Shown one piece after another: positions 12,258 through 32,893 of a stretch of 64,000 nt of DNA. The stretch's first letter is position 1; each line of letters opens with the position of its first letter. Source of the stretch: Ignavibacteria bacterium (GTDB lineage Bacteria; Bacteroidota; Ignavibacteria; Kapaibacteriales; UBA2268); the NCBI GenBank assembly GCA_026417135.1, contig JAOADV010000002.1:1-64000 (forward strand), read 5' to 3'. The notes below the pieces were generated by a model. That model saw only the letters and a list, made by a program, of their open reading frames with translations. It had not been told where the DNA came from and ran no database searches. The translations under genes and the position numbers were made by a program.

Positions 12258-15200
12258 TTATTTCAAGTTCCCACTTAGAGTTGCCAAATTTTCTTTTGCA
12301 ATCTGATTTTCTGGGTCAATTGAAAGAATTTTGTTGAATAGTTGAATTGCTTCATCTGTTTCTCCACCTAAGGATTTTATGATGGCAAGATCATTTAGTG
12401 CATCGATATTATTTTCATCGATTACTAAATAATTTTCGATAATGTTTTTAGCTTCTTCGATTCTGTTGTTTTCAAATAAGTCTTGAATTTTTAATTTTGG
12501 GTATTCACAAAATGAATCGGCTTCGAGACTTATATTGGACTTTGTTTTATTGTCCGAAAGAATTTTTTTACTATGTAAATTTTCAGGATAACCAATAAAA
12601 TTTATGAATGGGGATTTAAGAACTACTTTATTTTGTAAAAGTAAAACAAGTTCTTTGATTTTTCTTGCTTGAGAAATTTTTCCTATAGTTAGAAAATGAC
12701 AATATTTTAGGCTCAAATATTCTTGGATAATTTGTAAGGTTTCGTAAGGAACTTTCAAGATTAATTGCCACGCAATTGCTTCAAGGTTTGATTTTAAAAA
12801 TGTATCAAGATTGCTTTCAACTGCTATGCATATTTCGTTGATAACTTTTTCGTTCTGGTTGTGAAATTTTGCTATGAATTTTGTAAAGTTTTCAAGGTTG
12901 ATTGTATTTATATTAAAGTTAGATATAAGATTAGTCAACAAAATTGCAAGCGAGAACTCTGATATTGTTTTGTTTTGAAATTTTAATAAATTCTCGACAT
13001 AAGCCGGCTCAAGATTTATCAGCGTAATTGGTTTTTCGGATGTCCTACTTTCTCGAATTTGGGGATTATTAGATTCACAATTAAAATTAAAATTTTCAAT
13101 CGAATCATATTGTAAAGGGAAATGGTATAAAACAAATGGGATAGGGAAAAGTCTTTGGTCGGGAAAACCAGCTTGGGGGTTGGTTGAATAATTAAAATCA
13201 AAATTTAATGATTTTTTCCATCCTTTTAATAATAAAAAATTAAATATTTGGTTACTATCGGTTTTATTATCCAAGTAGTAAGCATATTCTTTGCTTAAGT
13301 CATAGTCGGGCAATTCTGAGAATATTGTATTGTATCCTAAAGAGTCGACTAAGAAAATGGATTCTTTCAAAGAGACCCATGAAAATGGAGATTCTAAAAA
13401 TTCATTTAGGTCGAGACTAATAAACCAATCATAATCAAGTTCACGAGCCAAATCTATTTTTTTCTTCAAAATCAGCTCTAGTTGATTTTTTGTTGTTGTA
13501 GAATTTTTAATTTGTTCGTCGAATTGTTCAATTTGAACTAATCCTTTGTTCAAGAATTTCGATATATTTTGAATTTTTACTTCATCGTATTTGCTATAAA
13601 GTAAATAAGTATCAATACCTTGTTCAATTAAATTTGTTATCGAGTACTCAGAGAAATTTTCTAAATCTGAGGTAGAAATCAATGCCAAAACTCGGAAGTT
13701 TTTAAGTTCGACTTTTTGGTCTAAATTGACAAATTCGGGTATGTAATTAGTTAAATTTTTGAATGGTGTATTAAAGTTCTTGTTTGAATTTACAGATTTA
13801 GCCCATTCAAATTGCTTCTCGGTAAATAAGAGTGGATGGTATTGAATAATTTGAGATTTATTTATGATATCTTTCTCTAAATCTTCTTGAAACCTGCTTC
13901 CTTTTCTCACTCTGTGAAAAAATAAAGGCTCGGGGATTCTCTTTCCAGTAAAACCTTTTTCTATTGCGGAAATCCAAAATTCCCAGTCTTCGTAACCAAT
14001 GCCTTTTTTATATCCACCAACTGTTTCCCAAACAACTTTTCTATACAAAGTTGAATTTCCAATGTAATTGAATTTAGTTTCTATTAGCGGATCCCAATCT
14101 AAAGATGGGACATACTGCTCAGAAAAACCAAAATGTTTTTGGTCTGTGTAAGCAATGTGAACTTCCAGATTTTTCTCAAGTAGATTGACTGTTTTTTCTA
14201 GAAACTGGGAATGGAGTAAATCGTCGGCGTCGAGAGGTAAAATGTATTCACCAAGAGAATGAGTAATTCCATAGTTTCGAGCAATAGATACTCCTTCGTT
14301 AGTCTTTTCCAAATATTTGATGTTTTTGTTTGAATACTTTTGGATTAAATTAAATGCAACTTCGCGTGTATTGTCAGTGCTTCCGTCATTGACTATTATA
14401 CATTCCCAATTTTGAAAAGTTTGATTAATAATACTTTCAACAGCTTCGGAAAGGTATGGAGCTAAATTATAACAAGGGATAATAATCGAGACCTTGGGTT
14501 TTTCATCTGTAATTTTCTCCTTTGAATATTTTATCTTTTCATAGTTTTCTTTGGTAGAGTAAATTTCTATCAATGGAGTAGAAATTTCAACGCTGTTGAT
14601 TGAGTTTAGAAAAGATAATGGGCTTTCGACTAGAGATTTGATTGTAACTGTGGTTAAAAAAGCTTTCTTTGCGAGCAATGGGAAAAACTCATTTCTTGGG
14701 AATTTAGGTATAATTTGAAGATAATCTTTAAATGAATATTTGTGTCTTTCGAGCTCCCGTTGATTAAGAGTTTCGTCCTCAAATTTGACTTCGTAAAAAT
14801 TGAAAAAAGCTACGACCACATTAGAGTTTTGATTAAAACTATCTATACCATATTGGGTAAAACTAGGAAATAGGCGATTGTGGTCAAATAGTATTGAAAT
14901 AATTTTCCCACTCGATTTTTGCACTCCTAAAGTTATTTTTTCGTGAGTAGTTAACTCTTGGTCTATCTCAATAAATTTTACTCTTTTATCAAATCGAAAG
15001 TAGTCGTTTAAAAACGATAAATCTTTTTTGGGAGTAATAATTAGTATCTCCAAATTCAAAAAAGTTTGGTTCAAAATTGTGTTCGTTGTAAGAATTGTCT
15101 TTTGAGGTGAAGAGTTGTGTATAACAATAAAGGACACATCTGGATTTTTTGGTTCAATCGAGTAGAAATCAAAATGTCGATTTAAATAATAATTTGTTCT

Positions 15201-15944
15201 GTAAAAATTTTCGAGAGCAATTTTGTTAGCTCTAATTTGATAAAATGTTCTAACTTCACTTGTTTCGACTCGGCAAGCTTCTGAATTTTCACGTTCGAGG
15301 CCCATTTGATTATAAAAATATAATCCTAAAAGAAGGGGAATGTGTTTGAAAGTATATTTTTCTGAAATTCGTAGCCACCATTCGTAATCTCCAGCTATTT
15401 TTAAGTCTTGGCGAAAAAATCCAAACTCGTTGTGTAATGTCCTTCGCCACATTGGTTGATGTCCAACGTAAGTAACATAGAGTAAGTGTTGTCGGTCGAA
15501 ATGTGGATAGGAAGTGTATCCGGTTGGAGTGCAATTTTGGAAGGTTTGGTTTTCGATATTTGTAATTATTTGGTTAGGATAAACTAATGCCACATTGGGA
15601 AATTTTTCGAGTTCATCAGAAAGTATTTCTAATGCTTGTGGGTGATGACGGTCGTCTGTATTGGCATTAGTTAAGTATTTCCCCTTGGCTGTTTCGATTC
15701 CTCTATTCCAAGCAGAATAAAGAGGTTCTCGCTTTTCAGTTCGGATATATTTTATGTTGGGGAAATTCTTGATATATGTTCTAACAATTTCTGCTTCGTT
15801 TTGTTGGGATGCAGAATCGATAACTATTATTTCTAACAGATTTTTTTTGTAAAGAGTTTGGCTTATTAAATCATCTAAGCAACCTTTGATGAACTTTTCG
15901 GAATTGTATGTTGAAACCAACGCCGAAACTAAGAAATCATCCAT
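12258..15944 (-). CDS. Very large multi-domain GT2-type glycosyltransferase with C-terminal TPR
   Basis: About 1228 aa from the ATG at 15944, which overlaps the upstream gene by eight bases; a TTG 33 bases further upstream also keeps the frame. Residues ~1-215 are a GT2 domain (VSALVSTYNS, IIVIDSAS, TNANTDDRH). Around ~268 a second GT-A-like segment (VSFIVIHNSSPQ) lacks a clear DxD and looks degenerate. Around ~482-700 is a full GT2 domain (VSIIIPCYNLAPYL, IIVNDGSTDNT, LPLDADDLL, YEDWEFW). Around ~748-870 is another GT-A-like part with SLDLNEFL. The final ~75 residues are TPR repeats (NIDALNDLAIIKSLGGETDE, AIQLFNKILSIDPENQ). It probably adds several sugars in sequence, with TPRs contacting a partner or acceptor protein. 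Confidence 0.8.
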   Translation of the reverse strand: MDDFLVSALVSTYNSEKFIKGCLDDLISQTLYKKNLLEIIVIDSASQQNEAEIVRTYIKNFPNIKYIRTEKREPLYSAWNRGIETAKGKYLTNANTDDRHHPQALEILSDELEKFPNVALVYPNQIITNIENQTFQNCTPTGYTSYPHFDRQHLLYVTYVGHQPMWRRTLHNEFGFFRQDLKIAGDYEWWLRISEKYTFKHIPLLLGLYFYNQMGLERENSEACRVETSEVRTFYQIRANKIALENFYRTNYYLNRHFDFYSIEPKNPDVSFIVIHNSSPQKTILTTNTILNQTFLNLEILIITPKKDLSFLNDYFRFDKRVKFIEIDQELTTHEKITLGVQKSSGKIISILFDHNRLFPSFTQYGIDSFNQNSNVVVAFFNFYEVKFEDETLNQRELERHKYSFKDYLQIIPKFPRNEFFPLLAKKAFLTTVTIKSLVESPLSFLNSINSVEISTPLIEIYSTKENYEKIKYSKEKITDEKPKVSIIIPCYNLAPYLSEAVESIINQTFQNWECIIVNDGSTDNTREVAFNLIQKYSNKNIKYLEKTNEGVSIARNYGITHSLGEYILPLDADDLLHSQFLEKTVNLLEKNLEVHIAYTDQKHFGFSEQYVPSLDWDPLIETKFNYIGNSTLYRKVVWETVGGYKKGIGYEDWEFWISAIEKGFTGKRIPEPLFFHRVRKGSRFQEDLEKDIINKSQIIQYHPLLFTEKQFEWAKSVNSNKNFNTPFKNLTNYIPEFVNLDQKVELKNFRVLALISTSDLENFSEYSITNLIEQGIDTYLLYSKYDEVKIQNISKFLNKGLVQIEQFDEQIKNSTTTKNQLELILKKKIDLARELDYDWFISLDLNEFLESPFSWVSLKESIFLVDSLGYNTIFSELPDYDLSKEYAYYLDNKTDSNQIFNFLLLKGWKKSLNFDFNYSTNPQAGFPDQRLFPIPFVLYHFPLQYDSIENFNFNCESNNPQIRESRTSEKPITLINLEPAYVENLLKFQNKTISEFSLAILLTNLISNFNINTINLENFTKFIAKFHNQNEKVINEICIAVESNLDTFLKSNLEAIAWQLILKVPYETLQIIQEYLSLKYCHFLTIGKISQARKIKELVLLLQNKVVLKSPFINFIGYPENLHSKKILSDNKTKSNISLEADSFCEYPKLKIQDLFENNRIEEAKNIIENYLVIDENNIDALNDLAIIKSLGGETDEAIQLFNKILSIDPENQIAKENLATLSGNLK

Positions 15945-18900
15945 ATTTTTTGTCCGAACCTTTAAAAAACTTTTCAATTTCTTCTAATTCTTCAATCCAA
16001 CTTTCAAATTCAATTTCATCAAATGGTAAATTTTTTTGATAATTTAGATTTTTATATTCATTTGTTACTTTAGAAATGATTGGTGCTAAGAAATCACCTC
16101 CGCCTTTTTCAAATAATTCAACCAACGATATTGGTATCGATTGGTGTTTGGTATTAATTTTATACATCGAGGCAAAATTATTCTCCCTCTCGACAATTAA
16201 CTTTGCTTCTTGATTGTATTTATCCATCCATTTACCCGTTTTAGAATTTGGCTGGAATCTGAAAACAGCAAGAGGAACTGAAATAGTATAGAGATTAGTA
16301 AATCTAAAAAATCTACACCATAGCTCGAGGTCACTTGCCATAGAGTAATTAGTCTCAACATAAGAACCGGACATTTCCCAAAGACTTCTTCTCCAAAAGG
16401 TACCTTCTTGTTGAATAAATGGGGAATCATATTTGCCTGAAAGAATTTTTTCATATGAATAAAATTTTTCTCCCCAATTTGTTTGGAGAAAGTTTTCTAC
16501 GGATAGACTTGTTATTTTTGAATTTGTTAACCAAAGACAATTGTTAAATGTTGCAAATACCTCTGCAACAAAAAAAAGTGAACCTGGAAGATAAAAATCG
16601 TCTGCATTTAACCAGGCCAATATTTCACCAGTTGCTCTGCTAAATCCTTTATTTATAGCATCGTATTGTCCATTGTCTTTTTCCGAGACCCAACCAGAAA
16701 GATATTTGCTATACTTTTTTATGATTTGTACACTCTTGTCCGTGCTCCCACCATCAATAATGAAATATTCCAAGTTTGGATAATTTTGAGATAGGATGCT
16801 CTCGATACATTCCTGGATAAAATCTCCTTGGTTTAGATTAGGGGTAATGATTGATATTTTGGGGTAGTTCGGATTGTTTTTCTTTTTTAAATAGTTGATT
16901 TTAGAATATTTCGATACATAAGTTGATTTTGTAACTTGAAATGCAAGGAAAGTTATTTCTTTATCATTGTTGATTTCCTTTATTAAAAAAGTTTTTTTAT
17001 TTGTGAAATAATTTTCAAAATAACTTTCAAAAGATTGGTCTAAAAATTTCCCCAAAAATTTTTTTAAATAATCTATATTAACTTCATTTATTTCAAATTC
17101 AATGAAAAACCAAATTTTTTGATGCTTTTTTAATGATTTGGACAATATCTCGACTAATTTTTCTAAGTTGTTATGTTCCTTAGAAGAATCTGTTAATTTA
17201 AAATAGGCAAAACCTAAGTAAAAATGATATTCTGAAACTTGAATTTCAAGTTGGTCTGGTGAAATACAAATCGATTCAACATTTTCAAATAGATTACTTT
17301 TTTCTCTAATATTTTTATTTTCAAAATCGACCAAAAAAATATTTTGATTAATCAGTTTACTCAAATCTGGTAAGTTTGGAGAACCTATTTCGCTCAAAAT
17401 TATAATGTTAGATGGAAAATAACTATTAGCGAAAATTATATGTGTTACAATTAGATTGAAATATTCATTTAAAGGCAATTTGTTGTGTATGACCGTCTTA
17501 TTTAAGATTTTTTCATCTAAACCACTTAAAAAAGGAATTAGCTCTTTAGAAAGTAGGAAAAGTTTTTTGTTTAAGAGTCCAGTATCGATTTCATTTTTGA
17601 TGTTATTTCTAATAAAATTAAAATAATTCTCAAAATTATCTTGTTCATTGCGAACAATTAGTTTTGTATAAAGTTCTAAATAATTGTATGCTTGAATAAT
17701 ATCGCAGTAGTTAGACTGAGCAAATTTGGAAATTTGATGGTTGTTCTTATTCTTCTCTTCTTTGAAGAAAAGAATGCCTTCAATTAAATTCTTAAGATCG
17801 AATGGCTTTGCTAACCAGCCATTTTTCTTATTTTCAATTATATCCCCAACACCTCCTATGTCGAAAGCTACGACTGGCGTACCACACAAAATAGATTCAA
17901 TAACTGTATTTGGTAAATTGTCTTCTGTTGACATAAAAAGAAACATGTCTACGGCTGAATATACCATTGCCATTAATAAAGGTTCGTTTATATAACCTAA
18001 ATAAATAATACGATTTTGATTATTATTCTTAATATAATTTACATTTCCAAAAATGGCAAATACAATGTCTTCTCCGAAAGAGTGTTTTGGAAATTCATTT
18101 AATAATTCCTCAAATAAGTGAAAGCCTTTTCTTTTCGTTTGATACTCTGCCCCAAAAAGTATGATATATGCATCGTTGGGTAGATTTAAGTTTCTTCGGA
18201 AAAAAGACCTGTCGTATGTTTGGTATATACCAATTGGGAATCCATTTGGAATCACAAAAACATTTTTATCGGACAAAAGTTTACTTTCTTTTACTCTTCG
18301 AGCTAACCATCTACTTGGAGTTACAATTGTCAAGTCGAGCTTTTTATAAAATTCCTTCTTGATTTTGAATTGTTGATTGCTTAAATCGTTTTCAAGATTT
18401 GAAGCAAGTTGTGGACACTTTTTGCATTCGCTTTTAAAAAGTTCGCACCCTGAAGTGTAGTGACAACCGCCTGTATAAGGATTTTCATCGTGTAATGTCC
18501 ATACTATTTTTTTGTTTCGAAAAATATCTACATCAAAATTAAAATCTACAAGAGTCGAAACCCAATGAAAGTTAATAATGTCGGCATTTTCAATATGTTC
18601 GTTATTTGTTAGGTCGGAAAGACTGGATATAGGTGTAAAGATTTCTAAGTCTTTTGGTCGGTTAGGGTAGAGTTGCTTTAAAGTTGTATGCCAGTTTTTT
18701 TCAAAGTCAGCCCACTTCCAATTTTCAGCAAACTCTTTTCTTTTAACTCGGTAAACAGATTTTAAACTGGTATCTTTATGTAAGGTCAAAAATTTGGAAT
18801 CGACTCCCAACCGTAGTAATGCTAAGTGGAGCCGAAGTGCAGCAATACCAGCACCTCCTCGGTCCCAAAATGATAAATGCACAACTTTTGGGAAATTTGC

Positions 18901-19911
18901 TTCAAAATTCTCTTTAATCATTATTGGTAATTTTTCAACATCTTTGTTGATTGGTTCAACGAGAGCGAAAATTTGTTGCGGTTTAACGGCTTCCATAAAT
19001 AATGAATCAGGTTTTCTTGTAGTTCCATCAGGGTTAATGTCTAAATAGTAAGAATTGAAATTTGGTATTCTGGATTTTGTTGCTGTAACTACTTCAATTT
19101 CAATAAATCCTGCATCTTTCAAAAGAAGGCCTAATGAATATCTATCGTACATCCATTGATGAACTTCACCAGAAAGACGAAATTTTCCTATTTCTGAAGG
19201 ATTTTCCTTTTTCTGGAATTTCCTTTTTCGATATTCCTCTGGGGTTATAGTTTCACCTCTTTCTCTTATTTGGTAAATGTTTATTTTAGCTTCGTTACCT
19301 ACTCTTTGGTATATAAATTCTTCGCCTGGGAGAGGATATTGTTTCCAGTATTCGAGCATTTCGCCACCGGACTTGTTACGGACCATTTGGTCAAAAAGCT
19401 CTAACAAAATCCAATGGTATTTTATACTTGCCTCGACATCGCCTTCTAAAGCTTTATTAAGATTTTCAAGATAAAGTTTTACAATTTCTTCGAGATTTGG
19501 AACAACTACTCTAATTATTCCACCAGGTTTAAGTACACGATAACATTCTTTAATGAATATAGGAGCATAAGCCTTAGGAAAGTGTTCTAATAAATGTGAA
19601 TGATAAATTACATCAGCTGTATTATCTTCAAACGGTATTCCGTTCAATAGGTCGTATTGAATAACATTTTCACCAGTTTTGTTAAAGTCGATATTAATCC
19701 AATCTTTGTGAAAGTGGTTACCGCAACCTAAATTCACTAGCTTTGGTTTCGATTTTAATGTATCGGTTATTGTCTGAAGATTTAGAATTAACTCCAAGGT
19801 GATAGCATCTTGGTCGGATGGATTGTTTATCAAGTATTTGTTGAATTCAACCTTAGGGTCGAAATTAATTCTTTGTTCAATCTTTTTCAAAATTTCAATA
19901 ATTGAACTCAT
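15937..19911 (-). CDS. Fused methyltransferase - GT4 glycosyltransferase - GT2 glycosyltransferase
   Basis: 1324 aa, starting at ATG 19911. Residues ~55-200 are a class I SAM methyltransferase (VNLGCGNHFH, HSHLLEHFP, YRVLKPGGIIRVVVPN). Residues ~339-735 are a GT4/GT-B glycosyltransferase (HLSFWDRGGAGIAALRL, ADIINFHWVS, NVFVIPNG, IESILCGTPVVAFDIGGVGD). A long AT-rich middle part (~735-1010) is unrecognised. Residues ~1016-1280 are a GT2 domain (ISIITPNLNQGDFI, FIIDGGSTDKS, AWLNADDFY). Three catalytic activities on one chain suggest stepwise building and O-methylation of a glycan. It sits between two other giant glycosyltransferases on the same strand with minimal spacing. Confidence 0.83.
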   Translation of the reverse strand: MSSIIEILKKIEQRINFDPKVEFNKYLINNPSDQDAITLELILNLQTITDTLKSKPKLVNLGCGNHFHKDWINIDFNKTGENVIQYDLLNGIPFEDNTADVIYHSHLLEHFPKAYAPIFIKECYRVLKPGGIIRVVVPNLEEIVKLYLENLNKALEGDVEASIKYHWILLELFDQMVRNKSGGEMLEYWKQYPLPGEEFIYQRVGNEAKINIYQIRERGETITPEEYRKRKFQKKENPSEIGKFRLSGEVHQWMYDRYSLGLLLKDAGFIEIEVVTATKSRIPNFNSYYLDINPDGTTRKPDSLFMEAVKPQQIFALVEPINKDVEKLPIMIKENFEANFPKVVHLSFWDRGGAGIAALRLHLALLRLGVDSKFLTLHKDTSLKSVYRVKRKEFAENWKWADFEKNWHTTLKQLYPNRPKDLEIFTPISSLSDLTNNEHIENADIINFHWVSTLVDFNFDVDIFRNKKIVWTLHDENPYTGGCHYTSGCELFKSECKKCPQLASNLENDLSNQQFKIKKEFYKKLDLTIVTPSRWLARRVKESKLLSDKNVFVIPNGFPIGIYQTYDRSFFRRNLNLPNDAYIILFGAEYQTKRKGFHLFEELLNEFPKHSFGEDIVFAIFGNVNYIKNNNQNRIIYLGYINEPLLMAMVYSAVDMFLFMSTEDNLPNTVIESILCGTPVVAFDIGGVGDIIENKKNGWLAKPFDLKNLIEGILFFKEEKNKNNHQISKFAQSNYCDIIQAYNYLELYTKLIVRNEQDNFENYFNFIRNNIKNEIDTGLLNKKLFLLSKELIPFLSGLDEKILNKTVIHNKLPLNEYFNLIVTHIIFANSYFPSNIIILSEIGSPNLPDLSKLINQNIFLVDFENKNIREKSNLFENVESICISPDQLEIQVSEYHFYLGFAYFKLTDSSKEHNNLEKLVEILSKSLKKHQKIWFFIEFEINEVNIDYLKKFLGKFLDQSFESYFENYFTNKKTFLIKEINNDKEITFLAFQVTKSTYVSKYSKINYLKKKNNPNYPKISIITPNLNQGDFIQECIESILSQNYPNLEYFIIDGGSTDKSVQIIKKYSKYLSGWVSEKDNGQYDAINKGFSRATGEILAWLNADDFYLPGSLFFVAEVFATFNNCLWLTNSKITSLSVENFLQTNWGEKFYSYEKILSGKYDSPFIQQEGTFWRRSLWEMSGSYVETNYSMASDLELWCRFFRFTNLYTISVPLAVFRFQPNSKTGKWMDKYNQEAKLIVERENNFASMYKINTKHQSIPISLVELFEKGGGDFLAPIISKVTNEYKNLNYQKNLPFDEIEFESWIEELEEIEKFFKGSDKKYG

Positions 19912-23707: not shown

Positions 23708-24838
23708 TCACAAATAAAAACTTCTTTTCTTGTAAAATTTTTTTATAGTTCCAACAATGTATTTTATTTGGTTTTCTTTCAATTCAGGATACATTGGCAG
23801 CGAAAGAATTTCATTTTGAAGTTTAAATGCAACGGGAAAATCTTCTTTTTTGTGACCCATATATGAATAAGCTTTAAGAAATGGCAAAGCTATAGGATAG
23901 TGGATTCCCGTTGTAATTCCACACTCACTTAAAAAATTAGTCAATTCTTTACGTCTACTTGACCTTATGACATAAAGGTGATAAACATGAAAAGATTCTT
24001 GTTGTTCTGTTGGAGTAACAACTTCGCTCACTTCTTCAAAAAGTTTGTTATATAAGTATGCGTTATTTCTTCTCTTATCATTCCATTCCTCAAGATATTT
24101 CAATTTTACGTTTAAAATTGCTCCTTGCAATCCATCCATCCGTGAATTTGTACCTTCGAATAGATGGTCGTATTTATCTAAACGCCCGTGATTCCTGAAC
24201 ATTTTACATTTTGTGGCAAGTTCTTCGTCATTTGTTACTATTGCTCCTGCGTCGCCAAAGGCACCAAGATTTTTACCAGGGAAAAAACTATAACAACAAA
24301 CGTCGCCAAATTCAACAAGATGTTGATTGTTAAACTTTGCGCCATGCGACTGAGCACAATCTTGAATAATTTTTAGGTTGTGTGCTTTAGCGAAGTTGAC
24401 AATCTTTTGCATATTTGCAGGTTGTCCATATAAATGCACTACAATGATTGCCTTTGTCCTTTTGGTGATTTTTCGAGATGCATCGTCGAGATTAATAAGA
24501 TAAAAATTTGGGTCGACGTCGACGAAAATTGGTTTAGCCCCACATAGTGTAACTGCTTCTGAAGTAGCTATGAATGTATTTGCTGGAACAATTACTTCGT
24601 CATTTTTTCCAATTCCACAACATTTCAAAGCAATGGTTAGTGCATCTGTTCCGTTGCCAACAGCTACGCAATATTTACTGTTACAAAATTTTGCAAAATT
24701 TTGCTCGAACTCTTCGACGTATTTCCCCAAAATAAACGAAGAATCATTAATCACACTCTGTATTACTATGTTAATTTCATTTTTAAGGTATTTAAACTGA
24801 GCTTTTAAATCGACAAGGGGTATATTAAGTTTTCTCAT
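23708..24838 (-). CDS. DegT/DnrJ/EryC1/StrS family PLP-dependent sugar aminotransferase
   Basis: 376 aa. It opens with the family motif IPLVDLKAQFKYLKNEI. The PLP contacts are visible: NGTDALTIAL, IQDCAQSHGAKF and the Schiff-base lysine Lys189 in SFFPGKNLGAFGDAG. These enzymes transfer an amino group to a nucleotide-linked keto sugar, giving amino sugars such as those on bacterial flagellins and surface glycans. It lies seven bases upstream of asnB. The Gfo/Idh dehydrogenase in this cluster could supply a keto-sugar substrate. Confidence 0.9.
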   Translation of the reverse strand: MRKLNIPLVDLKAQFKYLKNEINIVIQSVINDSSFILGKYVEEFEQNFAKFCNSKYCVAVGNGTDALTIALKCCGIGKNDEVIVPANTFIATSEAVTLCGAKPIFVDVDPNFYLINLDDASRKITKRTKAIIVVHLYGQPANMQKIVNFAKAHNLKIIQDCAQSHGAKFNNQHLVEFGDVCCYSFFPGKNLGAFGDAGAIVTNDEELATKCKMFRNHGRLDKYDHLFEGTNSRMDGLQGAILNVKLKYLEEWNDKRRNNAYLYNKLFEEVSEVVTPTEQQESFHVYHLYVIRSSRRKELTNFLSECGITTGIHYPIALPFLKAYSYMGHKKEDFPVAFKLQNEILSLPMYPELKENQIKYIVGTIKKFYKKRSFYL

Positions 24839-24851: not shown

Positions 24852-25250
24852 TTAATTGATAAAAAATTTTTTATTTAAATTGGATAATAACATTGGAATT
24901 ATCCGATATTTCAAAATTGAGGCTATTAAAGAATTTATTAAAAATAGATTCATTAACATAGGAATTAAGCCATTCCTTTTGAAGTAATTTTTTAATATCA
25001 GAAAATAAATATAAGATTTTGGGTATTGAAAACAAAAAACAGGTTCTTTTGAGTTTGGTTGCTTACACAGAGCCCATAAATTAATAATTAAATAATAGGG
25101 TAAAAAGTGGACTTTTTGGGGGATATAGATAGTTATACCATCGGTTTCAAATGAGCTATTGGTCGATAGTATTTGAATTGCTTTAACTTTGATAAAATGG
25201 GAGAAAAAATTTAAGAATTTTTCGTTTGTCTCTTTCCGAAAGATAGTCAT
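24852..25250 (-). CDS. Unrecognised small ORF, possibly a gene remnant
   Basis: 132 aa filling an otherwise empty 467-base gap between the aminotransferase and the epimerase. It has an ATG and no overlap with another gene. The sequence is rich in Ile, Leu, Phe, Asn and Lys with hydrophobic stretches such as LMNLFLINSLIASIL, and no domain is recognised. It may be a small real protein of the glycan cluster or the decayed tail of a larger enzyme. No good ribosome binding site is seen. Confidence that it is expressed is low. Confidence 0.35.
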   Translation of the reverse strand: MTIFRKETNEKFLNFFSHFIKVKAIQILSTNSSFETDGITIYIPQKVHFLPYYLIINLWALCKQPNSKEPVFCFQYPKSYIYFLILKNYFKRNGLIPMLMNLFLINSLIASILKYRIIPMLLSNLNKKFFIN

Positions 25251-25305: not shown

Positions 25306-26322
25306 TTATTTCTTGTGATTTACTTTTAAAATTTCATTCCAGCGATGTAGATTTTTCTTAGCCCATAAATATTCTTTTTCAATTCCTTCTTCGAAACTTA
25401 TTTTTGGCTTCCAATTTAATTCATCTTGAGCTTTTTTATTATCCAGCCACATCATCTTTAAGTCGTTAGGATTTCTTTGCTTTCCTTCAATGTATTGTGA
25501 AAAGCCACCCTCTTCGAGTTCTTCATTTACGACAGAACCATCGAAAAATGTTCGACTTATATAATGGGCTACTTCCGAGATTGTTCTGGGAATACCACTT
25601 GAAACGTTGTATACAGTTGATTTGAGGTCAGATTTAGTCACGACAATGTTGTGAAGTTCAACTAAATCTTTAACATACAAAAAGTCCCTTATTGTCTTTC
25701 CACCAGCAAAAATTACTGGAGGCTTTCTTTCGATTACTCTTTTTAAAAAAATTGGTATAGACCTTCGATACCATTCTTTTTCTCCGTAAATAATGGAATA
25801 GCGAAGTGAAATAGTTGAAATAGCGTACAATTCAGAGTAAAGTCTACAATATTCTTCTGCGGCTAATTTACTGATTCCATAAGCCCAATTGGGATTTCTT
25901 GGTGAGTTTTCACTAGTAAGTGTATCCTTGTGCCCATAGACACAAGCGGAAGATGCAAAAATAAATTTTGGAACATTATTTTTGACACAAGCATTGAGAA
26001 GATTTAAAGTTGCTACGGTGTTGATTTCTAAATCTAAAAAAGGGTCGGAAGTTGAAAGTGAAATTTCAAGTTGCGCAGCGTGGTGGGATACTACGTCGAT
26101 TCCTCGAGTAATTTTGTAAATAAGGTCAATATTTCTGATATCTCCTTCAATGAATTCGATATCATCAGCAATTTCTTGTAAGTTGTCAAAACTTCCGCTG
26201 GACAGATTATCCAAGACTTTAACCTTTGCGCCATTAAAAACTAATGATTCGACAATGTGTGAACCAATAAAGCCAGCACCACCAGTAACTAATATTTTTA
26301 ATCCTTGAATTTTCATATTCAC
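25306..26322 (-). CDS. NAD-dependent sugar-nucleotide epimerase/dehydratase (extended SDR)
   Basis: Rossmann glycine motif TGGAGFIG at residues 13-20, SSACVYG, and the catalytic Tyr148/Lys152 pair in WAYGISK. The overall pattern (DNLSSG, EGDIRN, FLYVKDLV) is that of UDP-glucose 4-epimerase-like and related UDP-sugar enzymes. The start is GTG 26322 (GTGA overlap with the upstream HAD gene) or ATG 26316. Probably makes an activated sugar for the glycosyltransferases downstream; exact substrate not predictable. Confidence 0.87.
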   Translation of the reverse strand: MNMKIQGLKILVTGGAGFIGSHIVESLVFNGAKVKVLDNLSSGSFDNLQEIADDIEFIEGDIRNIDLIYKITRGIDVVSHHAAQLEISLSTSDPFLDLEINTVATLNLLNACVKNNVPKFIFASSACVYGHKDTLTSENSPRNPNWAYGISKLAAEEYCRLYSELYAISTISLRYSIIYGEKEWYRRSIPIFLKRVIERKPPVIFAGGKTIRDFLYVKDLVELHNIVVTKSDLKSTVYNVSSGIPRTISEVAHYISRTFFDGSVVNEELEEGGFSQYIEGKQRNPNDLKMMWLDNKKAQDELNWKPKISFEEGIEKEYLWAKKNLHRWNEILKVNHKK

Positions 26323-26882
26323 AATTGTAGATTTTGAATATATTCAAAATTTAAATGGATAAAACTTGCCGCTAATTCATCCTTCGACGAATCACCAATA
26401 AAAATGACTTTATCTTTATTTAATGAAAATTTTTGTAAAGCTAAGTTCAAACCTATAGGATTTGGTTTGGGATAATTTGTTTTTTCTAAACTAAATATTA
26501 AATCCGGGTCAAAAGGCATATTTAATTTTTCTAATGAATAGACAATAGTAGGGTAAAGATTGTTAGAAACAATTGAAACTTTTTTAAAGTGGTATAGTGA
26601 ATTGTAAAGTGCTATGCCTTTAGGATTTGGTTCTATTTTAGCTTTATCTTCAAATTCTGCAAGCACTTCCAAGTATAAATTCCAACTTTCCCAGTTATTA
26701 TTTTTATCGCGTTTTAGGATTAGGTTTTCCAAAGAAGTTTCGCTTAAGGAATTGAAGGTTTTGGGGAACTTTTCTAACAAAGTCTCTTTAAAGTATGACC
26801 AGTTGAGGTTAACGAAAAAAAGAGTTCCATCAAAGTCAAATATAATTCCCTCGAAATTATCAAGTATGTGGTTTAGATTCAT
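26319..26882 (-). CDS. HAD-superfamily hydrolase (phosphatase-like)
   Basis: 187 aa. The catalytic DxD is in IIFDFDGTLF (Asp16/Asp18), motif II is VSIVSNN, the motif III lysine is in NYPKPNPIGL and motif IV is VIFIGDSSKDELAA. This matches phosphoglycolate phosphatase-like HADs. In glycan loci such enzymes remove phosphate from sugar phosphates. It overlaps the epimerase start by four bases and lies 19 bases after the ATP-grasp gene. Confidence 0.82.
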   Translation of the reverse strand: MNLNHILDNFEGIIFDFDGTLFFVNLNWSYFKETLLEKFPKTFNSLSETSLENLILKRDKNNNWESWNLYLEVLAEFEDKAKIEPNPKGIALYNSLYHFKKVSIVSNNLYPTIVYSLEKLNMPFDPDLIFSLEKTNYPKPNPIGLNLALQKFSLNKDKVIFIGDSSKDELAASFIHLNFEYIQNLQL

Positions 26883-26901: not shown

Positions 26902-27861
26902 TTAATTTGTTTCTAGAAAAATGTCTGAAAAATAACGTATCATAATAAGTTCATCTTCAAAATCTTTGATTGGTTCGAGTTTTTCACCCATAAAATATTC
27001 AACTATCATTTCTGGTATATTTGCACCAGATTTTACTGAAAGGGTTAATCCACCAGCTGCGAACCTTGGGTTCATCTCAATTATATATATGTTTTTATTT
27101 GCATCTTCAATCATTTGAATGTTGCATGGGCCGTTGAAATTTATTTTTTTTATCAATTCTCTTGCAATTTCCATTAGGTTATTTTTTTTGACTGTTTTCC
27201 CAACTATACTTTTACCATCTTTAACGAGGATTCGAATTCTTGGAATTGCAACTATTGTTTCTCCTTTGATAGCAAGACAATCGACTGTGTATTCGGTCCC
27301 AGAGATAAATTTTTGGATAATAGAGTTTTTATATTTTTGTGTATAATAATTTAGGTCTAAATAATCCTCAATTTTATAAACATTTTTTGTGGAGCTTCCA
27401 GAAATAGGTTTGATTAAAAGGGGAAATGTGAAATTTTCGTCTAAAGTTTTTGTATCGATAATTTCAGGGAATAGGAAGTTATTATTTTTTAGAAACTTAT
27501 AAAAATTTAATTTATTATCGCATATATCAATAATGTCTGGTGAAGGGATTAAAATATTTATTTTTTCATCTTCAAACAGTTTTAAATTTTTGGAGAAGAT
27601 AATTATTTCTTTTGAAAAAAGAGGAAATAAAATATAAATATTATGTTTTTTACAAAGCTCTAAAATTTTGGGGATGTAATTAGGGTCGTTGATTTGTGGT
27701 ACTAAATACCATTTATCAGAAAGATAAAGACCTGCAGAGTACTGGTTCATATCGACAGCAACAATAGTGAACTGGTATTTTTTAGAGCTCCTTAGTGCAT
27801 AGATTAAATTTACTGCTGTCGCAACTCCAGCAGAGGTAATTAAGACATTAACCTTTTCCAT
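26902..27861 (-). CDS. ATP-grasp family ligase
   Basis: 319 aa. The first ~110 residues are a pre-ATP-grasp Rossmann-like domain (VLITSAGVATAVNLIYAL, FTIVAVDMN). The ATP-grasp core shows FPLLIKPISGSSTKNVY, IIQKFISGTEYTVD and the metal-binding NIYIIEMNPRFAAGG. It resembles the carbamoyl-phosphate-synthase large-subunit-like ligases seen in surface glycan clusters, which join a carboxylate to an amine. It could attach an amino acid to an amino sugar, but the substrate is inference. Its start overlaps the Gfo/Idh gene by 14 bases. Confidence 0.82.
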   Translation of the reverse strand: MEKVNVLITSAGVATAVNLIYALRSSKKYQFTIVAVDMNQYSAGLYLSDKWYLVPQINDPNYIPKILELCKKHNIYILFPLFSKEIIIFSKNLKLFEDEKINILIPSPDIIDICDNKLNFYKFLKNNNFLFPEIIDTKTLDENFTFPLLIKPISGSSTKNVYKIEDYLDLNYYTQKYKNSIIQKFISGTEYTVDCLAIKGETIVAIPRIRILVKDGKSIVGKTVKKNNLMEIARELIKKINFNGPCNIQMIEDANKNIYIIEMNPRFAAGGLTLSVKSGANIPEMIVEYFMGEKLEPIKDFEDELIMIRYFSDIFLETN

Positions 27862-28852
27862 TCTTTAGTAATTTATCAACCTTACATAGGATTTTTACAA
27901 TTTTTAGGGCATTTTCACCATTGGTAATAGGTTCTTTATTGTTTTTTAAGCAATCTACAAAATGATTAGCCATTACTTTTAAAGGTTCTCTAAATTCAAA
28001 ATATGGGATTACTACGTCTCCATTCCTTTGTAAGAGTTGAAAATGCCCAAAATTTTCTATTGGTGGTAGCTCTTTTGGAAATAATTTTTCGAAACCTTTA
28101 TTAAATATCATAATTTTTGCGTCGGTGGATACATCATCGTAAATCAACATTTTTTTTGTTCCAACAATTGTTAACCTTCTTACCTTTAAAGGATGAAGCC
28201 AGCTGACGAAAATTGTGGCAAAAATTTTATCAGGATAAAGTAGGTTACTAATAACAATATCTTCAATTCCATCTTGCAAGTAAAACATACCTTGCGCTTT
28301 TACAACAGTCGGGTTACTTTCTAATAGAAACTGCAAAACTGATAAATCGTGAGGGGCAAGATTCCACCAAACGTTAACATCGTTGCGCACTATTCCCAAA
28401 TTTAATCGTTCAGAAAACAAATACAAAAGGTCTCCTAATTCACCGTTCGATATTATTTCTTTAATTTTTCTGACAGCATCGTTGTATACAAAGGTATGGT
28501 CAACCATTAATTTTACATTGTTTTCTTTGGAAATTGCAATTAGTGATTTTGCATCTTCTACATTAAGAGCTAATGGCTTTTCTACCAAAACATTAATTTT
28601 TTTTTCTAAGAAATACTTAGTTAATTCAAAATGTGTAGATGGGGGAGTAGAAATTACAACTGCATCGACACCTCTGTCTACAATTTCTTGTAATGAGCTG
28701 ACCTTTTCATTATTAGGATTTGTTCTTAAATGCTTATAGATTTTATTTTCGTCTATATCGTAGAGAAAAGTTTTGTTTACATCAGCTAATTGATTAAATA
28801 TTCTTACGATGTTACTTCCCCAATAACCTAGACCAATAATTGCAATTTTCAT
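27848..28852 (-). CDS. Gfo/Idh/MocA family NAD(P)-dependent sugar dehydrogenase
   Basis: 334 aa. N-terminal Rossmann motif IIGLGYWGSNIVRIF, DAVVISTPPSTHFEL and the family-typical EKPLALNVEDAK; the C-terminal alpha/beta domain contains VNVWWNLAPHDLSVL. It probably oxidises a sugar nucleotide, giving the keto sugar used by the DegT aminotransferase. It is the first gene of the glycan run below the flagellar genes, separated from the FlgM-like gene by 73 bases that contain a small hairpin. Confidence 0.87.
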   Translation of the reverse strand: MKIAIIGLGYWGSNIVRIFNQLADVNKTFLYDIDENKIYKHLRTNPNNEKVSSLQEIVDRGVDAVVISTPPSTHFELTKYFLEKKINVLVEKPLALNVEDAKSLIAISKENNVKLMVDHTFVYNDAVRKIKEIISNGELGDLLYLFSERLNLGIVRNDVNVWWNLAPHDLSVLQFLLESNPTVVKAQGMFYLQDGIEDIVISNLLYPDKIFATIFVSWLHPLKVRRLTIVGTKKMLIYDDVSTDAKIMIFNKGFEKLFPKELPPIENFGHFQLLQRNGDVVIPYFEFREPLKVMANHFVDCLKNNKEPITNGENALKIVKILCKVDKLLKNGKG

Positions 28853-28925: not shown

Positions 28926-29177
28926 TTAAATTTTGTTAAAAATTTTTTCAGCTGTTTTTTGGATAATTTCTAAATTATTGTAAAAACCACTTTCAATTTT
29001 GCTTTTAATTTGTTGCAATCTACGAGCTTCTTCGGATATCTCGAGTTTGTCACCTATTTCATTAGTTTTTTCAAAATCTTTTTCTTTGGTTCTTGGTTTA
29101 TGTGATGGTGGGTTTGAAGATAATTTTGGTATTATCTTTTCGATGTTAACGTTAAGTTCTACATTGTTAGTGTTCAT
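28926..29177 (-). CDS. flgM: FlgM-like anti-sigma-28 factor
   Basis: 83 aa. The C-terminal half (LEISEEARRLQQIKSKIESG, then FYNNLEIIQKTAEKIF) has the pattern of FlgM, whose C-terminal helices bind sigma-28 and keep it inactive until the hook is complete. The N-terminal half is polar and probably disordered, as in FlgM. A GAGGG ribosome site precedes the ATG and the start overlaps the upstream gene's stop by four bases. It lies in a flagellar operon, and a sigma-28 promoter precedes the flagellin 3.7 kb upstream. Assignment rests on pattern and context. Confidence 0.6.
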   Translation of the reverse strand: MNTNNVELNVNIEKIIPKLSSNPPSHKPRTKEKDFEKTNEIGDKLEISEEARRLQQIKSKIESGFYNNLEIIQKTAEKIFNKI

Positions 29178-29545
29178 ACTTCCCTCTGAATGTACAAAAG
29201 TAGTTTTTTCTGTTTATTTATGTCTTTTATTTTCTCGGTTTGAAGTTTAAAATTTTCTTCGATTATGTCGAGATTTTCCTTTTCCTTTACAAGAATTTTT
29301 CTTAATCTATCGCTAAAATGGTTAGTATTATTACGGAAATAAAGTTGGACATTGTCGTCTTTGGACATTTCGGTAAATTTTTCAAAAAGTTTATCCCGTT
29401 CGTTTAGGACTTCAATTATCTTATCGGCTCTTTGAGAGATTTTATCCTTTTCAACGAGTAGCTCACTTATTTGGAGTGTAGAAGCTTCAATCATTTTCAA
29501 AAGCGATTCTACACTTTTAGAGTCAAACCTTTGCGTTTGCAACAT
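29174..29545 (-). CDS. FlgN/FliT-like flagellar export chaperone (coiled coil)
   Basis: Start set at the ATG at 29545 because GGAGG stands six bases before it; the longer frame would run deep into flaG. The 123-aa product is almost wholly helical and charged (SLLKMIEASTLQISELLVEK, IIEVLNERDKLFEKF, KENLDIIEENF), as expected for the FlgN/FliT chaperones that keep hook-associated proteins soluble before export. Position between flaG and the FlgM-like gene supports this, as flgM and flgN are often neighbours. Overlaps flaG by 23 bases. Confidence 0.55.
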   Translation of the reverse strand: MLQTQRFDSKSVESLLKMIEASTLQISELLVEKDKISQRADKIIEVLNERDKLFEKFTEMSKDDNVQLYFRNNTNHFSDRLRKILVKEKENLDIIEENFKLQTEKIKDINKQKKLLLYIQREV

Positions 29546-29948
29546 TTTTGTCCTCCAAGATAGCAGCAACATATCGTGCAATTTGAAGAGCAACATCAGG
29601 CGGTATTTGTTGGACAACTTCTTTTGTTTCTTGGTTAATTAACTTGAAAATCAATTTTTTTGTTTCCTTATCTCTTGTAAATTCTACCATTAAATTTTCC
29701 TCCCCGATAATCTCTTCTAATTTACGGGCTATTTTGTCGAAATCAACTGGCTTTTTGGATTGTTGATTAGTATCAACTTGGCTAATAGTCTTCACGAATT
29801 TATTAAGATTATCCAGGCCCTTTTCAATGGACTTGGCATTATTCAAATCTTTTTCATTCCTTGATTCCAAAACGCGGGAGGTAGTTTTAAATTCTGGCAA
29901 ACTGGTTTGAAGCTCGTTGATTGGTGTTCCTTCAATTGGAGTAATCAT
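29523..29948 (-). CDS. flaG: FlaG family flagellar protein
   Basis: 141 aa. The C-terminal ~70 residues carry the FlaG pattern LMVEFTRDKETKKLIFKLIN followed by QETKEVVQQIPPDVAL. The first half is polar and variable. FlaG influences filament length in several bacteria and its gene commonly sits beside fliD and fliS, as here. A strong GGGAGG precedes the ATG at 29948. Fifteen bases separate it from fliD. Confidence 0.85.
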   Translation of the reverse strand: MITPIEGTPINELQTSLPEFKTTSRVLESRNEKDLNNAKSIEKGLDNLNKFVKTISQVDTNQQSKKPVDFDKIARKLEEIIGEENLMVEFTRDKETKKLIFKLINQETKEVVQQIPPDVALQIARYVAAILEDKNVANAKV

Positions 29949-29963: not shown

Positions 29964-31430
29964 TTATCTAATAAAATTAGTAAGCAATGTATTTGCTGTA
30001 CTATAAAAAGACGAAAATTGAGATTGAGCTTTTAAATATGCTTCGAGACTTCGGAAATAGTCGTTTTTATAGTTTTCAGCTTGAATTTCAAGTTTGGCTT
30101 CGAATTCGGCAATTTTCCTTTGCACCTCTTGAACCTGAGTTTGAGCGTTTGTGGCTTTACTTGTTATGAAATTTGTGTCCGTTAATATTGGGGATAAGAC
30201 ATTTTTTAATTTTTTGACAAAGCTATCGCTCGAAACGAAAATATCCGAAACCTTAATTGAATTTGATTTTAAATTTTCTTCAAGTTTGGAAATATTCGAC
30301 AAAGTTAAGGTGCCATCGGGGTTGGTTCTAATTCCTATCTCGCTTAAGAAACGTGGATTTCCTGGTTCAGCACTTGTTATTTCTTGCGATGGGATAACCC
30401 TTAATGATGTTATTAAATTCCTTAAGAATGGTTCATCTTTTAATAGGTTTTTGTTTGCATTCAAAAATTGTAAAGTTTCATTAAAAGCATTTAGTAATGA
30501 ATTGATATGGGATTGCACTGCAGAAATGTCAACTTCAGTTGTAAGTGTAATGGGTTGGGCATTACTATCTTGAACTTTATTTAGATTAATTGTAAGTCCA
30601 GAAATTACATCGGATAATGAATTTGAACCACGGATAATTGGAATACCGTTAATTTCCGCTTCAGAATCGAGCTGAGAAATATCGGAGATTTTAAAATGTG
30701 CATATTGATTTCCCGATTGCGTTGGGGTTCGAATGTTAGCATTTGGGTCAACATTATCGAAACCAAGTGCATTTAATACTCCACTACCATTATCGTTAAA
30801 AGTAATTCTATTTTCAGAACCAGTATTTTTTGCTGTAATTGTGAGTCTAACAGTTGTGTTAGTGTCTTTAACAACAGAAGCATAAGCGTTTATATCATTT
30901 GTGTTGTTTATTGCAGAGGCAATTATTGAAAGAGCCTGTTCGTTTGTAGTGCCTACATTGATAGTAACGTTAACCGTTTTTCCATTAATAATAAAATTCA
31001 AGTTCGAGCCATTGACAGAGAATTGTGCAGAGGAGGAAAGTTTTGCAGAAATTAACAAGTCATTACTTGCTAATCGGTTAACCTTAACCGAATTTGTTCC
31101 TAGATTTGCTTCAGTTGTTGCACTTGCAGTAACATAAGATGAGTCGGAAGAGGTTACTTTTCTTGTAACAAAGTAATCGGATGAACTAGATAGAGAGAAT
31201 TTATCGATTTGTGTTTGCAAAACGTTCAATTTTGAGCGGAGTGAGTTTAAGAAGGAACTTTTTCTTTCTAATGTTGATTTTCTATTTTTTAGTTGGTCTA
31301 ATTTTCCAGATTGAGTTCGTTTATAAGCTTCGATAAGCAAATCGGCTTGGGTTCGAGCGCTACTCGAAGATGGAACAAGGGAGTTAAGAGCGTTTGTTAG
31401 TGCATTTAATCCCGATGTTAAATCAGCCAT
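29964..31430 (-). CDS. fliD: Flagellar filament cap protein FliD (HAP2)
   Basis: 488 aa. The N-terminal segment (LIEAYKRTQSGKLDQLKNRK, then SFLNSLRSKLNVLQTQI) and FVTRKVTSSDSSYVTASATT match FliD, followed by the FliD D1-D3 folds and a helical C-terminus with QVQEVQRKIAEFEAKLEIQA. FliD forms the cap under which flagellin polymerises. AAGG precedes the ATG. It lies directly after fliS in the same orientation. Many Ser/Thr/Asn residues in the middle may be surface exposed. Confidence 0.92.
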   Translation of the reverse strand: MADLTSGLNALTNALNSLVPSSSSARTQADLLIEAYKRTQSGKLDQLKNRKSTLERKSSFLNSLRSKLNVLQTQIDKFSLSSSSDYFVTRKVTSSDSSYVTASATTEANLGTNSVKVNRLASNDLLISAKLSSSAQFSVNGSNLNFIINGKTVNVTINVGTTNEQALSIIASAINNTNDINAYASVVKDTNTTVRLTITAKNTGSENRITFNDNGSGVLNALGFDNVDPNANIRTPTQSGNQYAHFKISDISQLDSEAEINGIPIIRGSNSLSDVISGLTINLNKVQDSNAQPITLTTEVDISAVQSHINSLLNAFNETLQFLNANKNLLKDEPFLRNLITSLRVIPSQEITSAEPGNPRFLSEIGIRTNPDGTLTLSNISKLEENLKSNSIKVSDIFVSSDSFVKKLKNVLSPILTDTNFITSKATNAQTQVQEVQRKIAEFEAKLEIQAENYKNDYFRSLEAYLKAQSQFSSFYSTANTLLTNFIR

Positions 31431-31441
31431 TCTTTATTCCT

Positions 31442-31798
31442 TTATTTTTCAATATTGAATGCCTGATTCCAAGCATTTCTAAGTTCTTGAACAATTTGAA
31501 TAGCTTCATCGTATCTTTTATGGAAAACGAGCCTTTGAATATATTCATAAAGACGATAAAGGCGAGTTGCAGTTTCTTCGTAATCAAAATTCAAAGCCCC
31601 GATAAGTTCAGCGAGGACACGATTCATCTTGTGTAAATCACCTTTTTTAGCACTGATTATGAAAAGGTCATACATTTTTAGAATAACCTTTTCCTTTGGC
31701 CAGGAAAGTACCTCTTGTTCAAGATATTGTGGGATGTGGCCATCTTTTTTAATACCATAAGCTTTCGAAACAGGTTCTTTAACGTTTTGGTTTATCAT
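31442..31798 (-). CDS. fliS: Flagellin-specific export chaperone FliS
   Basis: 118 aa, four-helix-bundle type. The typical FliS core is visible as WPKEKVILKMYDLFIISAKK, then ELIGALNFDYEETATRLYRL and YEYIQRLV. FliS binds the C-terminal D0 helix of flagellin and prevents premature assembly. The N-terminal ~28 residues (PVSKAYGIKKDGHIPQYLEQ) are somewhat longer than in enterobacteria. No strong ribosome site is seen. It starts 59 bases beyond the flagellin terminator, so it may have its own promoter or be reached by read-through. Confidence 0.88.
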   Translation of the reverse strand: MINQNVKEPVSKAYGIKKDGHIPQYLEQEVLSWPKEKVILKMYDLFIISAKKGDLHKMNRVLAELIGALNFDYEETATRLYRLYEYIQRLVFHKRYDEAIQIVQELRNAWNQAFNIEK

Positions 31799-31856
31799 AA
31801 ATTGCTCATTTAAAGATTAAAATTACAAAAAACAAAATTTATACCAAAATAGAAGC

Positions 31857-31885: not shown

Positions 31886-31909
31886 TATTTTTAAATATTT
31901 GTGGCCACA

Positions 31910-31942
31910 AGGTAACATAGTAGCTAGCCTAGGCTATTACCT
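31910..31942 (-). repeat. Inverted repeat at the flagellin 3' end
   Basis: A perfect 12-bp palindrome TAGCCTAGGCTA (31925-31936) lies immediately after the flagellin stop codon. It is flanked by AGGTAA (31910-31915) and TTACCT (31937-31942), the latter covering the stop itself. It could stabilise the flagellin mRNA end or serve as a protein-binding site. No function is known. Confidence 0.5.
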
Positions 31943-32893
31943 AAAAAGCTGCAAGAACGCTTGCGGTTGCTGATTAGCTTGCGTCAAAGATATAAGCGAA
32001 GCTTGCAGCAAGAATTGTTGTTTGATTAATTCGAGCTGTTCAAGAGCGACGTCGGCATCTTCGATTCGTGAGATTGCAGCGTTGTAATTGGTAATCTGCG
32101 ATTTTAATAAGTCTTCGTGTGAACCAATTCTGTTTTGAATGGCACCAAGATATGATGCGACTTTGTTAACGTTGTCGATAGCTGTTGCAAGACTTGTTAA
32201 GGTAGTAGCTATTTCCGATGCTGCAAAAATTCCTAAATTAGTTTCGGAAACATCATTAAGACTTTGTAGGCTTAAACCGGGAACCCCAGCAAAGCTTGTT
32301 GTAAATCCAGCGGGAGAAACTGCAGCGTTCGTTGCATTTAGGTTGAAATCGTTCGAGGCAATGTTGAAATCAGTATTCGAGGTTGTTAAGTCAACGCCTA
32401 TTGAAAGAATTGAGTTATCGGCGTAAAATCCAATAGCCCAAGTTCCAGAGTAGTTACCCCATAGGAGCTGCTTCCCACCGAACACTGTTGAATCGACTAC
32501 GAATTGAATTTGTTGTGCCAAACGATAGGATGCTTTTGCAAGAGCAACTTTTTCTGCTGTGCCCAAAGCACCAGTAGATGCTTGCGAAGCTGCGTCTTTA
32601 ATTTGGGTTAACAGATTTGTAATGTTGTCAAGAGCATCTTGTGCTATAGCTGTGACATTCATTGCTTCTCCCGCGGCAAGTAGTGCTTTTTTCAACGCAC
32701 CGTTACGGGCTTGCAAAGCACGGGACGTAATGTAGCCTGCTACATCATCGGCAGCAGTGTTGATTCGTTTACCAGTCGAAAGTCGCAACTGGCGCAGAGC
32801 GATGTTGTTGCTTGCAGCCTGCAACGCGTTATATGCGTTTTCTGCAGGTGTGTTGGTTCGTATCCTCGAACCTTGTGCAATTGCTGTTGGCAT
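31937..32893 (-). CDS. fliC: Flagellin
   Basis: 318 aa. The conserved N-terminal D0/D1 helices (ALQAASNNIALRQLRLSTGK, TAADDVAGYITSRALQARNG, AIAQDALDNITNLL) and C-terminal D1/D0 helices (YLGAIQNRIGSHEDLLKSQI, SRIEDADVALEQLELIKQQF, ASLISLTQANQQPQ) are both present. The short central part (GNYSGTWAIGFYADNS to VSPAGFTTSFAG) is rich in Ser, Thr and Asn and would face outward; it is a candidate for glycosylation by enzymes of the adjacent cluster. GGGAGG precedes the ATG, and a sigma-28 promoter lies 70 bases upstream. Only one flagellin gene is seen in the window. Confidence 0.95.
   Translation of the reverse strand: MPTAIAQGSRIRTNTPAENAYNALQAASNNIALRQLRLSTGKRINTAADDVAGYITSRALQARNGALKKALLAAGEAMNVTAIAQDALDNITNLLTQIKDAASQASTGALGTAEKVALAKASYRLAQQIQFVVDSTVFGGKQLLWGNYSGTWAIGFYADNSILSIGVDLTTSNTDFNIASNDFNLNATNAAVSPAGFTTSFAGVPGLSLQSLNDVSETNLGIFAASEIATTLTSLATAIDNVNKVASYLGAIQNRIGSHEDLLKSQITNYNAAISRIEDADVALEQLELIKQQFLLQASLISLTQANQQPQAFLQLFR

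Follow-up and report, generated by a model that had tools for sequence, protein, structure and literature searches.

Gene content of the flagellin-linked run

The DNA analysed here (the window) is a 64,000-nucleotide stretch of contig JAOADV010000002.1, from an Ignavibacteria bacterium with a genome of 2.24 Mb (assembly GCA_026417135.1). According to the open reading frame (ORF) list and translations, positions 12258–32893 form a single minus-strand run that begins with flagellin, ends with a 1239-amino-acid glycosyltransferase protein and contains flagellin, FliS, FliD, FlaG, two small proteins, nine glycan genes and one orphan ORF. An initial annotation of the window had read this run as a candidate flagellin glycosylation island. 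The genes it named are all present on the minus strand within these limits, each with Pfam support, and the short gaps and overlaps it described measure −95 to +73 bp, the sole larger gap being the 138 bp after fliC. From the gene order and the exchange of glycan genes within the genus, described below, we infer that this reading holds, and we consider it quite likely that the glycan genes are a flagellin glycosylation island with species-specific contents.

The flagellar block consists of six genes. Flagellin (FliC; 31937–32893), the presumed acceptor, carries Pfam Flagellin_N and Flagellin_C domains; it is followed by the flagellin chaperone FliS (31442–31798; Pfam FliS), the filament cap FliD (29964–31430; Pfam FliD_N and FliD_C) and FlaG (29523–29948; Pfam FlaG). 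The two small proteins, both found in all four congeners, are probably a FliT-like chaperone (29174–29617, start codon uncertain) and a FlgM-like anti-sigma factor (28926–29177). A FliT match was obtained only for the equivalent ORF of a sister-genus locus, L038 (E 2e-4, under the Pfam cut-off), and the FlgM match is weak (E 0.0055 over 20 positions, also under the cut-off).

The first glycan genes encode putative sugar-modifying enzymes: a GFO/IDH/MocA sugar dehydrogenase (27848–28852; Pfam), a PRK12767-type ATP-grasp ligase (26902–27861; Pfam ATPgrasp_Ter and PylC-like_N, PDB 2pn1) that scores 236 bits against NCBIfam PRK12767 and does not reach its cut-off of 390, a HAD-family phosphatase (26319–26882; Pfam HAD_2), an NAD-dependent sugar-nucleotide epimerase/dehydratase of the short-chain dehydrogenase/reductase type (25306–26322; Pfam Epimerase, nearest PDB entries UDP-glucose 4-epimerases), a DegT/DnrJ aminotransferase (23708–24838; Pfam) and an AsnB-like glutamine-dependent amidotransferase (21979–23700; NCBIfam TIGR01536, 395 bits against a cut-off of 267). 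Three large modular proteins follow, namely a 690-amino-acid glycosyltransferase and methyltransferase (19914–21986; Pfam Glyco_trans_1_2 and Methyltransf_23), a 1324-amino-acid methyltransferase-GT4-GT2 protein (15937–19911; Pfam) and the 1239-amino-acid multi-GT2 glycosyltransferase (12258–15977), in which Pfam finds three GT2 stretches and a C-terminal TPR_19. All nine glycan proteins were scanned and contain the active-site motifs expected for their families.

The run meets a convergent border on the plus strand (9608–12250) made up of queF-like, queD-like and TMEM260-like genes. The first two names are provisional assignments made from the sequence. The third gene (10388–12250), whose product is called protein O-mannosyl-transferase TMEM260-like by Pfam, overlaps queD and ends 7 bp from the end of the run.

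Fixed borders and exchanged contents in the genus

Our genus sample comprises five genomes, that of the window and congeners G001–G004. The flagellar block and the queF-queD-TMEM260 border were found in all five, with glycan genes at them. The initial annotation had suggested comparing the gene order by flagellin in related genomes; in all four congeners glycan genes stand at the flagellar block or the queF border, and queF, queD and the TMEM260-like gene are mutually adjacent at the island end. The island lies on one contig in three genomes (window, G002 and G003) and is split over contigs in G001 and G004, where it is presumably continuous.

The contents of these islands differ. The G002 island encodes a methyltransferase, a methyltransferase-GT4-GT2 protein, a two-GT2 protein and a 1668-amino-acid GT4/GT2 protein; that of G003 encodes a two-GT2 protein, a GT56 protein, a formyltransferase, a DegT protein and a methyltransferase. 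On the flagellar contig of G004 we found GT56, methyltransferases, a hexapeptide protein, a GH109-like oxidoreductase, a WbqC-like protein, a DegT protein, a 307-amino-acid protein with a weak GH130 match and, at the contig end, a GT2 fragment, while a second contig carries a methyltransferase, a methyltransferase-GT4-GT2 protein and a GT2 protein before the queF border. In G001 the flagellar contig stops just past the FlgM-like gene, so the only glycan gene visible is one for a GT2 protein, which stands at the queF border on a different contig.

Within the genus the flanking proteins are 62–97% identical (FliC 90–97%, FliS 79–81%, FliD 66–70%, FlaG 62–68%, queF 83–88%, TMEM260-like 62–66%), and the island proteins are either absent or share segments that are 41–61% identical. 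Relatives of the 1324-amino-acid protein occur in the islands of G002 (47%) and G004 (44%), and the methyltransferase half of the 690-amino-acid protein recurs in the same two genomes. The sole part common to all five islands is the second GT2 module of the 1239-amino-acid protein (13737–14537), which is 50–57% identical in the module alignment, with invariant DADD and GYEDW motifs. By BLAST, the other four islands contain no ORF matching the ATP-grasp or AsnB protein of the window. The sugar-making genes are swapped between islands, and as the contents differ between species, the flagellum of each species probably carries a sugar of its own.

Flagellin as the probable acceptor

Tests across the class and phylum bear on whether flagellin is the acceptor. 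The best 80 of 162 class loci yielded 79 named flagellin loci, of which 39 had FliS and FliD and 27 at least 5 kb downstream. Using profiles built from the window glycan genes, which do not detect families like RmlD and GT56, we found at least two matches downstream of flagellin-FliS-FliD in all three genus loci vs none of the 24 others; one of these others, L148, has a lone methyltransferase. A Pfam scan of a few neighbouring genes outside the genus gave FKBP and DinB at L040, a methyltransferase at L045, nothing at L038, and SSB, MlaD, GidA and an RmlD-family protein at L044. A separate observation concerns L059, a locus from a relative in the same order (G040:C8:14000–33999), where a lone flagellin and weakly matching epimerase and glycosyltransferase-like ORFs on the opposite strand share the same 20 kb.

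Homologues of the 1324-amino-acid protein numbered 31 in 395 phylum genomes at E ≤1e-50, the window's own included, when two first-look candidates were scored per genome. Nine of the genomes belong to the same class or family, and seven of these have a flagellin match. In the three with the best scores, all outside the genus, flagellin lies on the same contig at 23.7 kb (G271), 6.5 kb (G393) and 10.1 kb (G313), and further glycosyltransferase-like ORFs stand between the homologue and flagellin. The glycan run of G393 also includes a 1134-amino-acid radical SAM/SPASM protein (L229:6314–9718). For the shared GT2 module, 294 class genomes gave 19 matches, 15 of them outside the genus; ten of these 15 genomes have a flagellin match, and in two the module is near it (3.6 kb in G147; 21 kb in G073, with weak flagellin scores). 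Binomial values of 1e-4 for three of nine and 0.025 for two of ten depend on assumed target sizes and, like the Fisher value, ignore shared ancestry. We conclude that the flagellin-locus test and the test of the 1324-amino-acid homologues both support flagellin as the acceptor.

Several observations weigh against this reading. In G001 and G004 the junctions between the flagellar block and the queF border fall between contigs, so the linkage is presumed there. At the sister locus L044 an RmlD-family gene lies about 3.6 kb past the FlgM-like gene and was not flagged by our profiles. In six of the nine class genomes the 1324-amino-acid homologue is not beside flagellin, and all eight distant genomes that were tested have the homologue without flagellin, 13 more being outside the test. 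Five of the 15 genomes with a GT2-module homologue have no flagellin match, and in eight more the homologue lies away from flagellin; the module test is weak, and the family evidently extends beyond flagellated cells. Distant ATP-grasp homologues adjoin WbaP in L102 and L105. Enrichment of serine and threonine in the centre of flagellin, which we considered as a possible sign of glycosylation, was rejected, with values of 0.235–0.286 in the genus vs 0.188–0.263 in genera without an island. Finally, the longest terminator-like stem of our scan (31885–31857, 12 pairs) lies inside the 138-bp gap 3′ of fliC and would suggest separate transcription of fliC, although this is only a hint because the number of terminator-like sites equals that in shuffled sequence (10 vs 10.4). 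A promoter scan gave 79 sites, with 80.2 expected.

As to flagellin itself, all five genus proteins have serine at residues 122 and 193; among five outsiders, serine occurs at these positions in one and none, respectively.

Alternative functions for the island

The glycan genes might instead serve the synthesis of an O-antigen, capsule or exopolysaccharide at the cell surface, with the genes for export located elsewhere and the proximity to flagellin being an accident of genome order that became fixed in the genus. The initial annotation had kept such a role open, and we regard it as improbable. Wzx-like and WbaP-like proteins are indeed encoded outside the islands in all five genus genomes, and the ATP-grasp homologues next to WbaP and the GT2-module homologues in genomes without flagellin also speak for this explanation. 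GT56, present in G003 and G004, is the family of WecF, the transferase of the lipid-linked enterobacterial common antigen. However, neither PF01943 (Wzx) nor PF02397 (WbaP) has a match inside any genus island; all matches are outside, and in G002, whose genome is complete, 33 kb separate fliC from the WbaP gene, which is on the opposite side from the island. These scans showed no case in the genus of such a run that is remote from flagellin and accompanied by genes for O-antigen export. Moreover, no export family was found among the island proteins scanned with Pfam (all nine glycan proteins of the window, four of G002, five of G003 and ten of 12 of G004). The ten island ORFs of the window contain no flippase, polymerase, ABC export or initiating phosphoglycosyltransferase gene, Wzy and ABC genes not having been searched genome-wide. 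The recurrence of flagellin-adjacent homologues in other families of the class also argues against an accident of gene order.

The target could also be a secreted or surface protein other than flagellin, modified for example via the TMEM260-like membrane protein that adjoins the island in all five genus genomes. We regard this as very improbable, as the TMEM260-like gene is convergent and overlaps queD, and so belongs to another transcription unit, and at 62–66% identity it resembles the flanks rather than the island.

A model for flagellin glycosylation

We therefore return to the flagellin glycosylation island and propose a model for how its products may act. The dehydrogenase, DegT aminotransferase, epimerase, HAD phosphatase, ATP-grasp ligase and AsnB protein would act in the cytoplasm to produce a modified amino sugar. 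The three large modular proteins, with their glycosyltransferase domains, would then place a short glycan on serine or threonine residues of newly made flagellin, before its export via the flagellar secretion system, and the methyltransferase domains may methylate the glycan. The GT2 module common to all five islands is our best candidate for the starter transferase acting on the nearly invariant flagellin, and the exchangeable genes may provide the species-specific outer sugar.

The predicted chemistry is based on family assignments. The nearest PDB entries of the window DegT protein are 7b0d (394 bits), QdtB (342) and WbpE (269), with the WecE-type 4piw at 109. Entry 7b0d is named glutamine--scyllo-inositol transaminase; QdtB and WbpE are sugar 3-aminotransferases. 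The DegT proteins of G003 and G004, 70% identical to each other, match the WecE-type entries 6blg and 4piw with 531–557 bits. For the dehydrogenase, the best NCBIfam model is an archaeal UDP-N-acetylglucosamine 3-dehydrogenase (170 bits, cut-off 450). Given this model match and the nearest structures of DegT, 3-oxidation and 3-amination of the sugar are plausible, and we propose that the two proteins are a sugar-nucleotide 3-dehydrogenase and a sugar 3-aminotransferase. We propose that the ATP-grasp ligase joins an amino acid or another carboxylate to the amino sugar, and together with AsnB it could supply both an amino acid and an amide. A possible product is a 3-amino sugar in aminoacyl or amidated form. 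As all five genus genomes have another full-length AsnB-family gene outside the island, the AsnB copy of the island is an extra one. The suggestion of the initial annotation, an amino sugar that is amidated or ligated to an amino acid and O-methylated, fits these families and is a plausible guess.

In 296 phylum genomes we found only 17 other homologues of the ATP-grasp protein at E 1e-30, the best being 28–33% identical, and a search for named relatives gave 29 pattern matches in contig records, none of which was confirmed. Gene order was read in five wider homologue stretches and in L107, L104 not being scanned for it: a HAD gene follows ATP-grasp in L102 and L103 and does not in L105, L106 and L107. 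Separately, L103 (9677–12402), from a distant genome of the phylum, has consecutive ATP-grasp, HAD and FemAB genes and then DegT, a set resembling the Clostridioides difficile type B enzymes discussed below. The homologues beside WbaP and this set indicate that the sugar enzymes have no diagnostic value in themselves. Among solved structures, chondroitin synthase is the closest to the shared GT2 module (140 bits). GmaR, a Listeria flagellin transferase, scores far lower (48 bits), so flagellin transferases do not stand out in the structure profile.

A more specific form of the model is tentative, and we regard it as rather doubtful. The genus would have a serotype-like flagellar coat, in which the conserved GT2 module starts a glycan on near-invariant flagellin and the outer sugar depends on an exchangeable cassette. 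Here this sugar would be a 3-amino sugar that the ATP-grasp ligase acylates with an amino acid and AsnB amidates, a case of convergence with the type B glycan of C. difficile; in sister species it would be a formylated or otherwise acylated Fuc4N.

Comparison with known islands

The locus shows two features of flagellin glycosylation islands, in that glycosyltransferase and sugar genes stand in the filament locus and that the same borders enclose variable contents. In thermophilic Geobacillus, according to PMC5109656, five types of islands with variable glycosyltransferase and sugar genes, subject to horizontal exchange, lie in a flagellar locus with fliC, fliS, fliD, flaG, fliT and flgM. The window island is likewise inside a flagellar locus with comparable filament genes and variable glycan genes. 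It differs in position, as the Geobacillus islands are placed between flagellin and flaG in that account, whereas ours follows the FlgM-like gene and abuts queF-queD-TMEM260. In addition, half of the Geobacillus strains are given there as lacking an island (PMC5109656), whereas all five of our genomes have glycan genes.

In Enterobacteriaceae, PMC4875605 describes inserts between fixed flagellar genes that vary strongly between and within species, exchange sub-clusters and include formyl-, methyl-, acetyl- and aminotransferases. The variable glycan contents between fixed borders are similar to ours. The enterobacterial insert lies between fliC and fliA, unlike here, and the main text of that paper mentions no asparagine, ATP-grasp, WecE or carbamoyl (PMC4875605).

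For C. difficile type B, PMC5207245 and PMC5207246 report glycosyltransferases beside fliC together with an aminotransferase and an ATP-grasp ligase, CDR20291_0245. The ligase is required past the trisaccharide stage, and the aminotransferase serves a 3-amino sugar, Fuc3N, which bears a taurine-Ala-Gly unit as its acyl group. The likeness to the window, an ATP-grasp ligase and a putative 3-amino-sugar aminotransferase beside flagellin, is one of family only. By Pfam, the window island ORFs include neither the FemAB nor the ornithine-cyclodeaminase-like gene reported there and have AsnB, HAD and GFO/IDH/MocA dehydrogenase genes instead. No Pfam family of Maf transferases or NeuB-type synthases was found in the ten island ORFs (E 0.001), a search that did not extend to the remainder of the genome.

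This kind of island is already known, and our results extend it to Kapabacteria, which are uncultured relatives of Chlorobi and Ignavibacteria. Our literature search found nothing on Kapabacteria flagellin or on flagellin glycosylation in Ignavibacteria. ‘Candidatus Thermonerobacter thiotrophicus’ from Mushroom Spring (MS-B_bin-24), which is assigned to this genus, has flagellar motility genes that are transcribed in situ, according to its description. If surface sugars are exchanged fast on a conserved filament outside animal and plant pathogens, this would point, in our own view, to phages or grazers rather than immunity as the selecting force. The five genus genomes are a small natural set for asking which transferase starts the glycan.

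Minor features of the region

Between the epimerase and DegT genes lies a 132-amino-acid ORF (24852–25250, minus strand; 25% G+C) that is possibly a remnant or not a gene; no Pfam or NCBIfam family matched it, and BLAST against the compared loci gave no relative. Low G+C says little about a foreign origin of the island: the glycan genes have 0.29–0.34 and the neighbouring queF, queD, TMEM260-like, FliS and FliD genes are equally low (0.32–0.34). No mobile-element family was found among the Pfam-scanned island proteins of the window. Directly upstream of flagellin are five tRNA genes (Tyr, Gly, Gly, Thr, Trp) at 33125–33540 on the plus strand, and beyond them ORFs of 1293 and 1435 amino acids, whose sizes suggest rpoB and rpoC.

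In genome G000, FlgK and a flagellin-family protein that is probably FlgL occur together on contig C13 (L053:12940–15379). Contig C5 of the same genome (L052) carries a second flagellin, 64% identical, with no FliS, FliD or glycan matches nearby. Giant modular glycosyltransferases appear to be common in this class, and we observed single frames with island-like glycosyltransferase modules of about 4531 amino acids (G290:C79:1568–15163, L233) and about 3744 amino acids (G021:C17, L232:1494).

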